Assembly (NCBI RefSeq): GCF_002858935.1
Contig: NZ_PJRT01000009.1
Location: 62,001-126,000, forward strand
Length of the DNA stretch: 64,000 bases
Reading direction: 5' to 3'
Source: Pantoea endophytica
GTDB taxonomy: Bacteria; Pseudomonadota; Gammaproteobacteria; Enterobacterales; Enterobacteriaceae
The notes below the pieces were generated by a model. That model was not told where the DNA came from, ran no database searches, and saw only the letters and a list, made by a program, of their open reading frames with translations. Shown here in pieces: positions 18,631 to 26,342 of this stretch; within the stretch, counting starts at the first letter, position 1, and each line of letters begins with the position of its first letter. A program made the position numbers and the translations under genes.

Positions 18631-19392
18631 CTAAACCGTCAACTCCAATCCAATACCTCGCTCGCGCAGGTCGCGGCACACCGCTTCATCCAGACGGGCA
18701 TCCGTTACCACATCGGTCAGGCTATCAATCGGCGCGGCGCAATACAGCGACCATGAACCGTATTTACTGCTGTCAGCCAGCAGAACGCGGCGGCGCGCGT
18801 TGGCCAGCAGATCCATCTTCAATCCGGCTTTCTCTTCGGTTGGCGTGGTAATCCCGCGTTCGATGCTCCACGAGTTGCAGCTGACAAAGGCAATATCAGG
18901 ATTGATGCTGCGCAGCAAACGGCGACCATGTTCGCCAATGCACGACTGGCTGGAATCGTCGATGCGTCCACCAATAATGGTGGTTTCGATTTGCTTAAAC
19001 TCCGACAGAAACAGCGCGATATGCAGATCGGCGGTGATGACCCGTAGCTTGAGGTGCGTCAGCTGGCGCGCCAGCTCCAGCATGGTGGTGCCGGCATCCA
19101 GCACCACCGCATCACCCGACTGCACGTAGCTGGCGGCAAACTGCGCGATGGCCTGCTTCTCGGCGAGATTACGCTGCATCTTCTCCAGCGTGGTCGGCTG
19201 ATTGGGAATAAAGCGATTCAGCGTAACGCCGCCGTGGCTGCGGCTGATAACGCCCTCTTTGTCCAGCTTGATCAGATCGCGGCGGATCGTCGCTGGCGAG
19301 GCAGAAATCGCGCTCACCAGTTGTTCAACAGTGACCAGATTATGGCTCTTCAGATAATCCATAATCTGGTCGAGACGGCTTTGTCCCTTCAT
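18631..19392 (-). CDS. DeoR/GlpR-family transcriptional regulator (YgbI-like)
   Basis: A 253-residue regulator. The N-terminal helix-turn-helix (TVEQLVSAISASPATIRRDLIKLD, about residues 21-44) is followed by the DeoR sensor domain with DAGTTMLELARQL and the GERG-like region. Sensors of this fold usually bind a phosphorylated sugar or sugar acid. It is the last gene of the minus-strand operon, six bases after pdxA2. Its similarity to YgbI, which sits beside a kinase of the same DUF1537 family in E. coli, supports a role as local repressor of both divergent arms. The likely operator is the palindrome at 21687-21700. Confidence 0.88.
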   Translation of the reverse strand: MKGQSRLDQIMDYLKSHNLVTVEQLVSAISASPATIRRDLIKLDKEGVISRSHGGVTLNRFIPNQPTTLEKMQRNLAEKQAIAQFAASYVQSGDAVVLDAGTTMLELARQLTHLKLRVITADLHIALFLSEFKQIETTIIGGRIDDSSQSCIGEHGRRLLRSINPDIAFVSCNSWSIERGITTPTEEKAGLKMDLLANARRRVLLADSSKYGSWSLYCAAPIDSLTDVVTDARLDEAVCRDLRERGIGLELTV

Positions 19393-19398
19393 ATTTCC

Positions 19399-20379
19399 CT
19401 ATGCAAGCTGCATCGCGAGTTTAATGGAGATCGCCATGCTCGCAGAGTTCGCTTTACCTGTCCAGGCGATATCAAACGCGGTGCCGTGGTCCGCCGAGGT
19501 GCGGATAAACGGCAGGCCCGCAGTGATGTTAACACCATCGTAAAAGCCTAGTAATTTCAGCGGGATATGGCCTTGATCGTGGTACATCGCTACCACCATA
19601 TCGTACTGTCCTTCCTGACACTGCAGGAACACGGTATCGGGCGGACACGGGCCGCTGACATCAATGCCCTGCGCTTTCATGGCGTTAATGGCAGGCGCGA
19701 CGATGGTGATCTCTTCATCACCAAACAGACCGTTTTCACCGGCATGCGGATTAACGCCTGCCACCGCGATGCGCGGCTGGTCGAAACCGACGCGGCGCAG
19801 GAAGCTGTCGGCCATGCCGATCACCGTTTGAATGCGCTCGCCGTTTAAGGTATCGAGGAACTTACGCAGCGCAATATGCGTGGTGACGTGAATCACTTTC
19901 AGCTTATCGGTGTAGAGCACCATGGCGTAATTTTTGGTGTTGGTCAGTTGCGCCAGCAGTTCGGTGTGGCCGGGATAGATATGCCCCGCTGAGTGCAGCG
20001 CCTCTTTATTTAACGGTGCGGTGGCGATCGCCTGTACGTCGCCAGCCAGCGCCAGTTCGGTGGCGCGTTTGACGCAACGCCAGGCCAAATCACCTGCTGC
20101 TTTTTGCACCACGCCAGGCTGCAGCGCGGCGGCATCCGCCAGCGGCTCATCAATTACGTTGATCATGCCGGGCGCGAAATGCGCATCCTTGACCTGGTCG
20201 AGCACGCGCAGTTCAGCCTGCGGCGTGACATGTAAACCCATCACCCGACGCAGCGTGTTAGCACAACCGACCACGACGGCAGGCACGCCCGCTAACTCAC
20301 CTTCTGCCAGCGCTTTAATGATGATCTCCGGGCCGATGCCCGCCGGATCGCCCATGGTAATCGCAATAATTTTACTCAC
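19399..20379 (-). CDS. pdxA2: 4-phospho-D-threonate 3-dehydrogenase-type enzyme (PdxA2)
   Basis: A 326-residue paralogue of PdxA. Partners of DUF1537 kinases in this family oxidise a 4-phospho-tetronate (threonate or erythronate) at C3; the product decarboxylates to dihydroxyacetone phosphate. Visible motifs are ITMGDPAGIGPEI at the N-terminus, PGHTE and the metal-binding YHDQGHIPLK, and a C-terminal SADHGTAFDIA. I prefer the GTG at 20379, which has GAGGAG seven bases upstream and gives MSKIIAITMGDPAG. An in-frame TTG lies five codons earlier. The start overlaps the kinase stop by eight bases. Its pairing with the kinase rules out the vitamin B6 role. Confidence 0.87.
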   Translation of the reverse strand: MSKIIAITMGDPAGIGPEIIIKALAEGELAGVPAVVVGCANTLRRVMGLHVTPQAELRVLDQVKDAHFAPGMINVIDEPLADAAALQPGVVQKAAGDLAWRCVKRATELALAGDVQAIATAPLNKEALHSAGHIYPGHTELLAQLTNTKNYAMVLYTDKLKVIHVTTHIALRKFLDTLNGERIQTVIGMADSFLRRVGFDQPRIAVAGVNPHAGENGLFGDEEITIVAPAINAMKAQGIDVSGPCPPDTVFLQCQEGQYDMVVAMYHDQGHIPLKLLGFYDGVNITAGLPFIRTSADHGTAFDIAWTGKANSASMAISIKLAMQLA

Positions 20380-24973: not shown

Positions 24974-25016
24974 CACGCCGCCTTATCCTGTAACCTTTTT
25001 CGAGTGGATAATTACT

Positions 25017-26342
25017 ATGACTAACTCTGCGCGCTCGAGTCGTATCCGTTGGTGGATTGCTGGCCTGATGTGGCTGGCCATCGCCATTAACTACATTGAC
25101 CGCACCGTTCTCTCGGCAGCGGCTCCGCATCTGATCAAAGAACTCGATATCAATCCTGAAATGATGGGCTTCATCATGGCGGCGTTCTTCTGGTCTTATG
25201 CGCTGTTGCAGATCCCAGCGGGCTGGTTTGCCGATCGCTTCGGCCAGAAAAAAGGGCTTGGTATCGCCGTCGGCTGGTGGTCGATCGCCACCATGGCGAT
25301 GGGACTGGCGACCGGCTTTAAATCGCTGCTGGCGCTGCGTTTAGCGCTCGGCGTCGGTGAAGCCGCCGCCTATCCCAGCAACGCGGGCATTACCGCGCGC
25401 TGGTTCCCGGATCGCGAACGCGCCACGGTTTCTGGCCTGTTCGACAGTGCCTCCAAATTTGGTGGTGCGGTGGCCATGCCGCTGATTGTCTTTATGATCG
25501 CCCTGTTCGACTGGCGTCTGACCTTCCTCGCTATAGGCGCGCTGGGCTTGTTCTGGGTGATTGCCTGGTACTTTATCTACGCCGAGAATCCGGAAGATCA
25601 TAAGTCGATAAGCCAGCAAGAAGTGCGCTTCATCCGTAATGGCCAGACGCAAAAGCACGGTGACAAAAGCGTGCGTCCGATGAAGTGGTACAAGCTGCTG
25701 CGCTACCGCAATATCTGGGCAATGTGCATTGGCTTTTTCACCATCAACTACACCTCCTATTTCTTTATTACCTGGTTGCCGACCTATCTGGTGAAAGATA
25801 AAGGCATGGATTTCCTCAAAATGGGGATGGTGGCTGCGCTGCCGCTGATCTGTGGCATGGTGATTGAAGTGCTGGCGGGTTGGGCATCGGATCGCATGGT
25901 GCATAACAAAGTGCTGTCGCTGACCGCTACACGCAAACTGTTTCTCACCATCGGCCTGCTGATGGCGCTGTGTATCGGATTTGCCCCGTTCACCGATTCG
26001 GTGTTTATGACCGTGCTGCTGCTGTGTATCGCCAAATCCGGCACCACCGTGGCGGCATCACAAGTGTGGGCCTTGCCGGGCGATGTGGCACCGCAAAACA
26101 GCGTGTCGATTGTGGCGGGGCTGCAGAATACCGTTTCAAACATGGGCGGCGCGGTGGGTCCAATCATAACCGGCGCGATTGTTGGCGCAACCGGTCACTT
26201 TACCTGGGCGCTGGTGTTCTCGGCGGTGCTGGTGGTAATTGGCATTCTTAACTATCTGTTCCTGATGGGTAAAGTTGAACCTATCGTCGATGAGGAACAG
26301 GTGACGCATGCGCATTCCGTGGCAAGTGGCGCGGCGCGGTAA
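25017..26342 (+). CDS. MFS transporter, anion:cation symporter family (sugar-acid uptake)
   Basis: A 441-residue major facilitator with about twelve membrane segments. The N-terminal RWWIAGLMWLAIAINYIDRTVLS and the loop WFADRFGQKKGL are typical of the ACS family that imports D-galactonate, glucarate and tartrate-like anions. GVGEAAAYPSNAGITARWFP is another family block. As the last gene of the plus-strand arm it probably imports the acid sugar that the locus degrades. The specificity cannot be read from the sequence. Confidence 0.9.
   Translation: MTNSARSSRIRWWIAGLMWLAIAINYIDRTVLSAAAPHLIKELDINPEMMGFIMAAFFWSYALLQIPAGWFADRFGQKKGLGIAVGWWSIATMAMGLATGFKSLLALRLALGVGEAAAYPSNAGITARWFPDRERATVSGLFDSASKFGGAVAMPLIVFMIALFDWRLTFLAIGALGLFWVIAWYFIYAENPEDHKSISQQEVRFIRNGQTQKHGDKSVRPMKWYKLLRYRNIWAMCIGFFTINYTSYFFITWLPTYLVKDKGMDFLKMGMVAALPLICGMVIEVLAGWASDRMVHNKVLSLTATRKLFLTIGLLMALCIGFAPFTDSVFMTVLLLCIAKSGTTVAASQVWALPGDVAPQNSVSIVAGLQNTVSNMGGAVGPIITGAIVGATGHFTWALVFSAVLVVIGILNYLFLMGKVEPIVDEEQVTHAHSVASGAAR

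Follow-up and report, generated by a model that had tools for sequence, protein, structure and literature searches.

Among the closest described systems to the genes considered here is the D-threonate pathway, which was reportedly set out by Zhang et al. in PNAS in 2016 and uses the kinase DtnK together with PdxA2. The discovery of DtnK is cited in PMC10971088, and an Escherichia coli region has been named for D-threonate metabolism (PMC9125672). Region GR 6 of E. coli BEN2908 holds five genes, referred to below as the core, together with sialidase-like and NanQ-like genes; the available part of that paper proposes no substrate, links the region to pyridoxal 5'-phosphate (PLP) synthesis only and mentions a similar cluster on pSymB of Sinorhizobium meliloti (PMC12928451). 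Here we compare these systems with a locus at positions 18631-26342 of the window, by which we mean the whole 64,000-nucleotide stretch of Pantoea endophytica DNA that was analysed. From its sequence it is rather likely that this locus encodes the central part of a route for the breakdown of 3-deoxy-D-lyxo-2-heptulosarate (Dha), a rare sugar acid of seven carbons that belongs to the rhamnogalacturonan II (RG-II) domain of pectin and is a 2-keto-3-deoxy diacid. The initial annotation had described the seven-gene locus as one of unknown substrate; the five core genes are already in print in GR 6, where the available text gives them no substrate.

Gene families and the five-gene core

All seven reading frames are intact and their named families are confirmed by Pfam. 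Among the NCBIfam models listed, only the kinase and PdxA2 score over a curated cut-off, DtnK reaching 535.5 bits against 450 for the D-threonate kinase model and PdxA2 653 bits against 583 for the D-threonate 4-phosphate dehydrogenase model, as well as passing the general PdxA model. The closest solved chains to PdxA2 are 6e85, named as a D-threonate 4-phosphate dehydrogenase, and 2hi1, and that of DtnK is 4xfm, reportedly assayed as a D-threonate kinase, which the Pectobacterium kinase of a locus of the same type (L075) matches over all 442 residues. The initial view that the kinase–PdxA2 pair acts on C4 acid sugars becomes more specific, the curated models naming the C4 acid as D-threonate. 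The Fe-dependent dehydrogenase belongs to the iron-containing alcohol dehydrogenases (PF00465, 125.8 against a gathering cut-off of 31.3) and passes no NCBIfam equivalog (ErcA 212 of 550, 4-hydroxybutyrate dehydrogenase 208 of 500, lactaldehyde reductase 208 of 523). The same is true of the DeoR protein (best YgbI, 179 of 400) and the 2-hydroxyacid dehydrogenase, and the MFS symporter stays under the TIGR00893 cut-off (336.4 of 395).

The locus was compared with 80 named relatives (63 enterobacterial and 17 others) and eight annotated loci, 88 in all, the closest named ones being those of Pantoea sp. SOD02 and Pantoea sp. RIT-PI-b, whose aldolases are 99 and 97 percent identical. It is a five-gene core, comprising the DeoR protein, PdxA2, DtnK, the Fe-dehydrogenase (feADH) and a DapA-like aldolase, to which exchangeable entry modules are added. 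The genes for DtnK, PdxA2, feADH and the aldolase all lie within the fetched stretch in 81 of the 88 loci, joined by deoR at 60 percent identity or more in 62 and without a close deoR in 19; pdxA2, feADH and the aldolase gene are the only core genes in three, and feADH and the aldolase gene the only ones in the stretch fetched for four, counts in which paralogues may be included outside Enterobacterales, as the presence thresholds for distant dtnK (24 percent), feADH (30) and 2-hydroxyacid dehydrogenase (33) are low. All five genes are found within the fetched stretch in 60 of the 63 enterobacterial loci, the exceptions being L044, whose stretch ends early, and L053 and L060, in which pdxA2 is elsewhere in the genome. 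The divergent arrangement of named families first described is thus present and intact, and with this recurrence it is not a matter of chance. Nor is the linkage of the core mere shared synteny, since its gene order and strand vary outside Enterobacterales. For a plasmid copy in Pantoea ananatis (L118 6384-13699) the interval from pdxA2 to feADH is listed without a kinase. Beside the core in Alloyangia (at L125 10755-18097) there are a gene of family GH78, a SiaP-type TRAP transporter and another DapA-like aldolase gene, with Phe at position 138 in DapA numbering, and these neighbours are perhaps a counterpart for the side chain of 3-deoxy-D-manno-octulosonate (Kdo) and rhamnose.

What had been taken as a single unit of seven genes divides at this point: the five core genes are linked, and the 2-hydroxyacid dehydrogenase and MFS genes make up an exchangeable module. 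The 2-hydroxyacid dehydrogenase occurs in 38 of the 88 loci and a BNR_2 sialidase-like protein in 55, with both in six and neither in one (L111). The usual partners of the sialidase-like gene are an SSF symporter, or a TerC protein and a DASS carrier, often with a YhcH-family protein and an SDR. When 15 genomes lacking the sialidase-like gene at the core were chosen, six held a full-length copy elsewhere, three weak partial matches and six none; in the window's own genome an SSF–BNR–SDR operon stands about 350 kb away from the core (G000:C31, about 434,288-437,683). The E. coli and Klebsiella version carries a gene for a TerC-family membrane protein after the aldolase gene (L120 7645-8403). 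The loci L036, L037, L038, L046, L047, L050, L051, L053 and L055 have a Cyclase-family (PF04199) gene downstream of their MFS gene and hold another MFS gene as well, at 36-39 percent identity.

Co-occurrence was assessed in an even draw of 149 genomes that covers 148 genera of the family, accepting the aldolase at E up to 1e-100 and the sialidase-like protein at E up to 1e-60; the aldolase, DtnK, GH28 and sialidase counts are taken as one draw, since the genome handles agree. The aldolase is present in 18 genomes and DtnK, over its cut-off, in 34, and DtnK is found in all 18 aldolase genomes against 16 of the 131 others (p 3e-14, ignoring phylogeny). One aldolase genome, G097, has only a dtnK remnant beside the aldolase gene (G097:C1 102646-105156), its complete DtnK being encoded on a different contig. 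The sialidase-like protein occurs in 12 genomes, 11 of which also have the aldolase, and in the twelfth, G178 (49 percent complete), broken pieces of DtnK lie some 4-5 kb away. GH28 proteins are found in 12 of the 18 aldolase genomes against two of the 16 with DtnK only (p 0.0017, again ignoring phylogeny), and in 23 of the 131 genomes without the aldolase. Further afield, pSymB of Sinorhizobium, pAt of Agrobacterium and plasmids of Azospirillum carry genes for the aldolase, Fe-dehydrogenase, PdxA and sialidase-like protein together with ABC transporters, and a kinase is listed for the Sinorhizobium and Azospirillum stretches.

A candidate operator common to both arms

Between dtnK and feADH there is a 36-bp operator candidate, TGATTATATTCAATCANNNTTGATTATATGTGAGCA, which is kept in all 63 enterobacterial loci, with no mismatch in 30, one in 30 and two in three; the other 17 loci show at least 12 mismatches. 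It was found at three or fewer mismatches in all 36 genome entries searched, two organisms apparently being entered twice (G148/G264 and G149/G290), and the pattern read backwards was found in none of the 36 at the same limit. Where the arms are physically split, it stands at both. In Serratia M24T3 the operator stands without mismatch before dtnK–pdxA2–deoR and with one mismatch at the feADH–aldolase arm, about 62 kb off on the same contig, and in Acerihabitans it has one mismatch at the aldolase arm and four at the dtnK arm. Because the operator is kept, and kept at both arms where these are split, the two arms form one regulon as predicted from sequence, and the alternative that they act on unrelated substrates, which the initial annotation had named as the outcome that would count against it, is disfavoured.

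The DeoR protein is predicted to act at this operator, and probably with CRP would control both arms from it; a CRP-like sequence, TGTGAGCAAGATCAAA, judged by the CRP consensus, runs on to 21721. A second operator site, with three mismatches and on another contig, lies upstream of the SSF–BNR–YhcH–SDR module of Pantoea piersonii. Weaker forms precede the SSF–BNR–SDR operons of the window's genome and two relatives (six, seven and six mismatches), each being the best place in its 16-17 kb stretch, where the next match has 13, 10 and 11 mismatches with the other strand of the same place included. These weaker forms are suggestive only in tying the module to the regulon.

A proposed route for Dha and its alternatives

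Four residues, Thr44, Tyr133, Arg138 and Lys161, are kept in all 88 aldolases, and compared with DapA the family has Asn in place of Thr45 in all 88 and Phe in place of Tyr107 in 87, with Ile in one. In E. coli DapA, the substrates of which are pyruvate and aspartate semialdehyde, Arg138 has been given the role of holding the C7 carboxylate, and sialate lyase has Leu at this position (PMC5380162); human HOGA, which acts on a C5 acid, has Asn at the corresponding position (PMC3188589). In our comparison NanA, YagE and YjhH all carry Leu at position 138, where the locus aldolase has Arg. The residue pattern fits a C7 diacid other than the lysine precursor. Identity with lysine DapA was rejected (183.9 bits, under the TIGR00674 cut-off of 206.15, with Asn at 45 and Phe at 107), as was identity with N-acetylneuraminate lyase (154.7 of 281 and 124.3 of 382, with Arg instead of Leu at 138).

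A tetronate would arise from a C7 2-keto-3-deoxy diacid if an aldolase that forms pyruvate acted on it first and a semialdehyde reductase next, and for this reason such a diacid is the predicted substrate. That the aldolase and dehydrogenase imply a compound longer than the C4 acid feeding the kinase and PdxA2 was already proposed at the outset; the linkage of the core, the operator common to both arms and the residues of the active site argue for it, and these, like the gene families, are read from sequence. By stereochemical derivation, cleavage of Dha between C3 and C4 followed by reduction gives D-threonate, and the D-ribo and D-arabino epimers give L-erythronate. Dha is, to our knowledge, the only C7 acid of this kind among plant polysaccharide sugars. 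It is described as a sugar of RG-II (PMC12168206, PMC12282258), and the first of these papers calls it sialate-related, states that in plants it occurs only in RG-II, and notes that Dha standards are lacking and that the enzymes making its precursor have not been identified.

In the proposed pathway Dha, or a piece that holds it, would enter through the exchangeable module, which is the MFS symporter and 2-hydroxyacid dehydrogenase here and a transporter with a sialidase-fold protein elsewhere. From it the DapA-like aldolase would form pyruvate and 4-oxo-D-threonate, a semialdehyde acid of four carbons, and the Fe-dehydrogenase would reduce the latter to D-threonate. DtnK is then expected, from the curated models and its established role, to make D-threonate 4-phosphate, and PdxA2, on the same grounds, to oxidise and decarboxylate this to dihydroxyacetone phosphate and CO2. 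Redox would balance if the Fe-dehydrogenase uses the NADH made by PdxA2. The cluster probably lets plant- and gut-associated bacteria use Dha, with breakdown predicted to be intracellular.

The sialidase-fold and GH28 proteins point to a plant polysaccharide. The partner protein of L075, which lies outside the window, matches the sialidase beta-propeller fold in a structure-based comparison; across 13 sequences QNHAAN stands at the expected place of the RIP arginine motif of canonical GH33 sialidases, and the other arginines and Tyr360 are invariant, the residues being read without superposition. GH143, the known Dha hydrolase family, is not among the 50 matches shown for either structure search, and this excludes nothing. 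In the window's genome the SSF–BNR–SDR operon is adjoined by a GH28 protein of pectin type and ABC importer genes, and of the two relatives examined L139 carries an ABC permease and GH28 close to the operon, L140 ABC genes and no GH28, with other genes lying between. The GH28 protein beside the operon in the window's genome has no obvious signal peptide, and the importer comprises a binding protein and two permeases (L138 10079-14592; G000:C31, about 438,078-442,591). Calls of a missing signal peptide were made by eye from protein starts, several of which are uncertain, above all in L100, L110 and L124.

Several observations weigh against Dha. Six of the 18 aldolase genomes are without GH28, and the p-values for co-occurrence take no account of phylogeny. 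The aldolase could owe its Arg138 to descent from DapA, and the D-xylo epimer would likewise give D-threonate. The 2-hydroxyacid dehydrogenase has no required step in the pathway; given its near-exclusive alternation with the sialidase-fold gene, it may be speculated that it oxidises a 2-hydroxy diacid and so provides the same keto acid. The sialidase-fold family departs from the arginine motif of sialidases at its expected place, and the sequence matches listed for the SSF carrier in the PDB are to carriers of choline, glucose, urea and iodide, with none for sialate. Outside Enterobacterales the L103 kinase scores 113 of 450 bits for D-threonate kinase, the stretch fetched from Agrobacterium (L122) lists no kinase and that from Roseomonas (L123) neither kinase nor PdxA; because the kinase is distant there, D-threonate is not established as the intermediate in those bacteria.

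The D-xylo epimer belongs to an alternative in which the same enzymes act on another C7 substrate, either a different 2-keto-3-deoxy-heptarate or a 2-hydroxy 3-deoxyheptarate oxidised by the 2-hydroxyacid dehydrogenase, of plant or bacterial origin. The alternation of that dehydrogenase with the sialidase-fold module would suit it, but the sialidase-fold and GH28 links point to a plant polysaccharide, for which Dha is the only such sugar known to us, and we regard the alternative as unlikely. The arms might instead do two jobs under one regulator, with DtnK–PdxA2 acting on free D-threonate and the aldolase and Fe-dehydrogenase taking a C5 or C6 2-keto-3-deoxy acid to pyruvate and glycolaldehyde or glyceraldehyde and then to the alcohol. 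Since 16 of the 34 DtnK genomes are without the aldolase, DtnK also works alone, and the Fe-dehydrogenase does resemble lactaldehyde reductase; yet every aldolase genome holds DtnK, and Arg138 is absent from YjhH and YagE, which are aldolases for pentonate and gluconate, which together makes a division of this sort quite unlikely.

A third possibility places the locus in the catabolism of sialate, 3-deoxy-D-glycero-D-galacto-nonulosonate (KDN) or Kdo, with the aldolase acting as lyase on a C8 or C9 ulosonic acid and the DtnK arm as a side pathway; it is brought to mind by the sialidase-fold protein, the YhcH family (which includes N-acetylneuraminate anomerase) and the SSF symporter of many relatives. 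It is very unlikely given the scores below both N-acetylneuraminate lyase cut-offs and the Arg at 138, and Kdo and sialate were set aside as substrates on the ground that their cleavage would give an aldose, which DtnK–PdxA2 should not use. The reading with least to recommend it is that the kinase and PdxA2 recycle 4-hydroxythreonine in vitamin B6 salvage or damage repair. STM0162 is reported to phosphorylate 4-hydroxy-L-threonine (PMC10971088) and the BEN2908 paper ties the kinase–PdxA2 pair to PLP synthesis (PMC12928451), but the window's genome has a second PdxA (G000:C31:164696, 38 percent identity) and salvage would leave no place for the aldolase, the Fe-dehydrogenase and the carriers, so that we consider it extremely improbable.

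For the Dha pathway, we are evenly divided on the wider claim that it is a so far undescribed and complete intracellular route, present across Enterobacterales (among them about one-fifth of the complete genomes of E. coli) and in Alphaproteobacteria that live with plants. Under one operator, this route would bring together two alternative entry modules, a Dha aldolase of a new kind, a reductase for 4-oxo-D-threonate and, in the cytoplasm, a Dha hydrolase of sialidase fold. No Dha–threonate or Dha–aldolase pathway was found described in the open-licence literature, as judged mostly from titles and the openings of abstracts. If the proposal is true, the bacterial Dha aldolase would be a tool with which to make, measure and remove Dha, the D-threonate kinase would gain a purpose in many plant-associated and gut bacteria, and a nutrient would be assigned to a region that, taken as a 12-kb query, is covered to at least 80 percent in 1043 of 5426 complete E. 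coli genomes.

Features, neighbourhood and comparison with known systems

The starts of pdxA2, dtnK and the 2-hydroxyacid dehydrogenase gene are given as refined; pdxA2 begins with GTG and overlaps dtnK by eight bases.

Table 1. Features of the locus, with positions in the window
Feature	Positions	Strand	Basis
DeoR-family repressor	18631..19392	-	Pfam DeoRC and HTH_DeoR
PdxA2, D-threonate 4-phosphate dehydrogenase	19399..20379	-	NCBIfam NF002891
DtnK, D-threonate kinase, DUF1537 type	20372..21643	-	NCBIfam NF047819
Candidate shared operator	21678..21713	.	Conservation across loci
Fe-dependent dehydrogenase (feADH), predicted to reduce a C4 semialdehyde acid to D-threonate	21826..22974	+	Pfam Fe-ADH; substrate predicted
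DapA-like class I aldolase, predicted to cleave Dha to pyruvate and 4-oxo-D-threonate	22992..23876	+	Pfam DHDPS
D-2-hydroxyacid dehydrogenase, optional entry-module enzyme	24020..24973	+	Pfam 2-Hacid_dh and 2-Hacid_dh_C
MFS symporter of D-galactonate type, predicted to bring in the substrate acid	25017..26342	+	Pfam MFS_1

The initial annotation had also placed the locus where speED would otherwise stand, and replacement of this kind was rejected. Both speD and speE still adjoin the locus in 22 of the 80 relatives, and the models SpeD (TIGR03331) and SpeE (TIGR00417) gave no match in the whole genomes of the window, L034 and L093, and matched in those of L035 and L036. From these counts and genome-wide results, speED has been lost beside the locus and not replaced by it, the place concerned in the window being 18411-18631, and loss of these spermidine genes seems to mark the small lineage formed by L034, L093 and the window's genome. 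The gap at 18426-18620, between the upstream gene and deoR, is G+C-rich with repeated words and, read by eye, a palindrome-like CTCCCCCACAAGTGGGGGAG; it is perhaps a repeat element where speED stood.

Set against known systems, the alternative module shares with the sialic acid catabolism of the E. coli operon (NanA, NanQ, NanT) a sialidase-type protein, an anomerase-family protein, a symporter and a pyruvate-forming lyase, but the lyase of the locus has Arg at 138 and its product would go to D-threonate, not to an amino sugar. With lysine DapA, which forms a C7 keto-diacid from pyruvate and a carboxyl-bearing C4 semialdehyde, the locus aldolase shares the fold, the catalytic Lys and Tyr and Arg138, and it differs in falling under the dapA cut-off, in its residues at 45 and 107 and in its predicted direction, that of cleavage. 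The D-glucarate/galactarate pathway uses a keto-deoxy-glucarate aldolase, tartronate semialdehyde reductase and glycerate kinase, and the order is the same, a keto-deoxy diacid giving pyruvate and a semialdehyde acid that is reduced and then phosphorylated, although that pathway is one carbon shorter and draws on other enzyme families. E. coli BEN2908 GR 6 has a DASS-type carrier in place of the 2-hydroxyacid dehydrogenase and MFS symporter of the window (PMC12928451). With the D-threonate pathway the locus has the same kinase and dehydrogenase families in common, and to these it adds, upstream of D-threonate, the aldolase, the Fe-dehydrogenase and an entry module.

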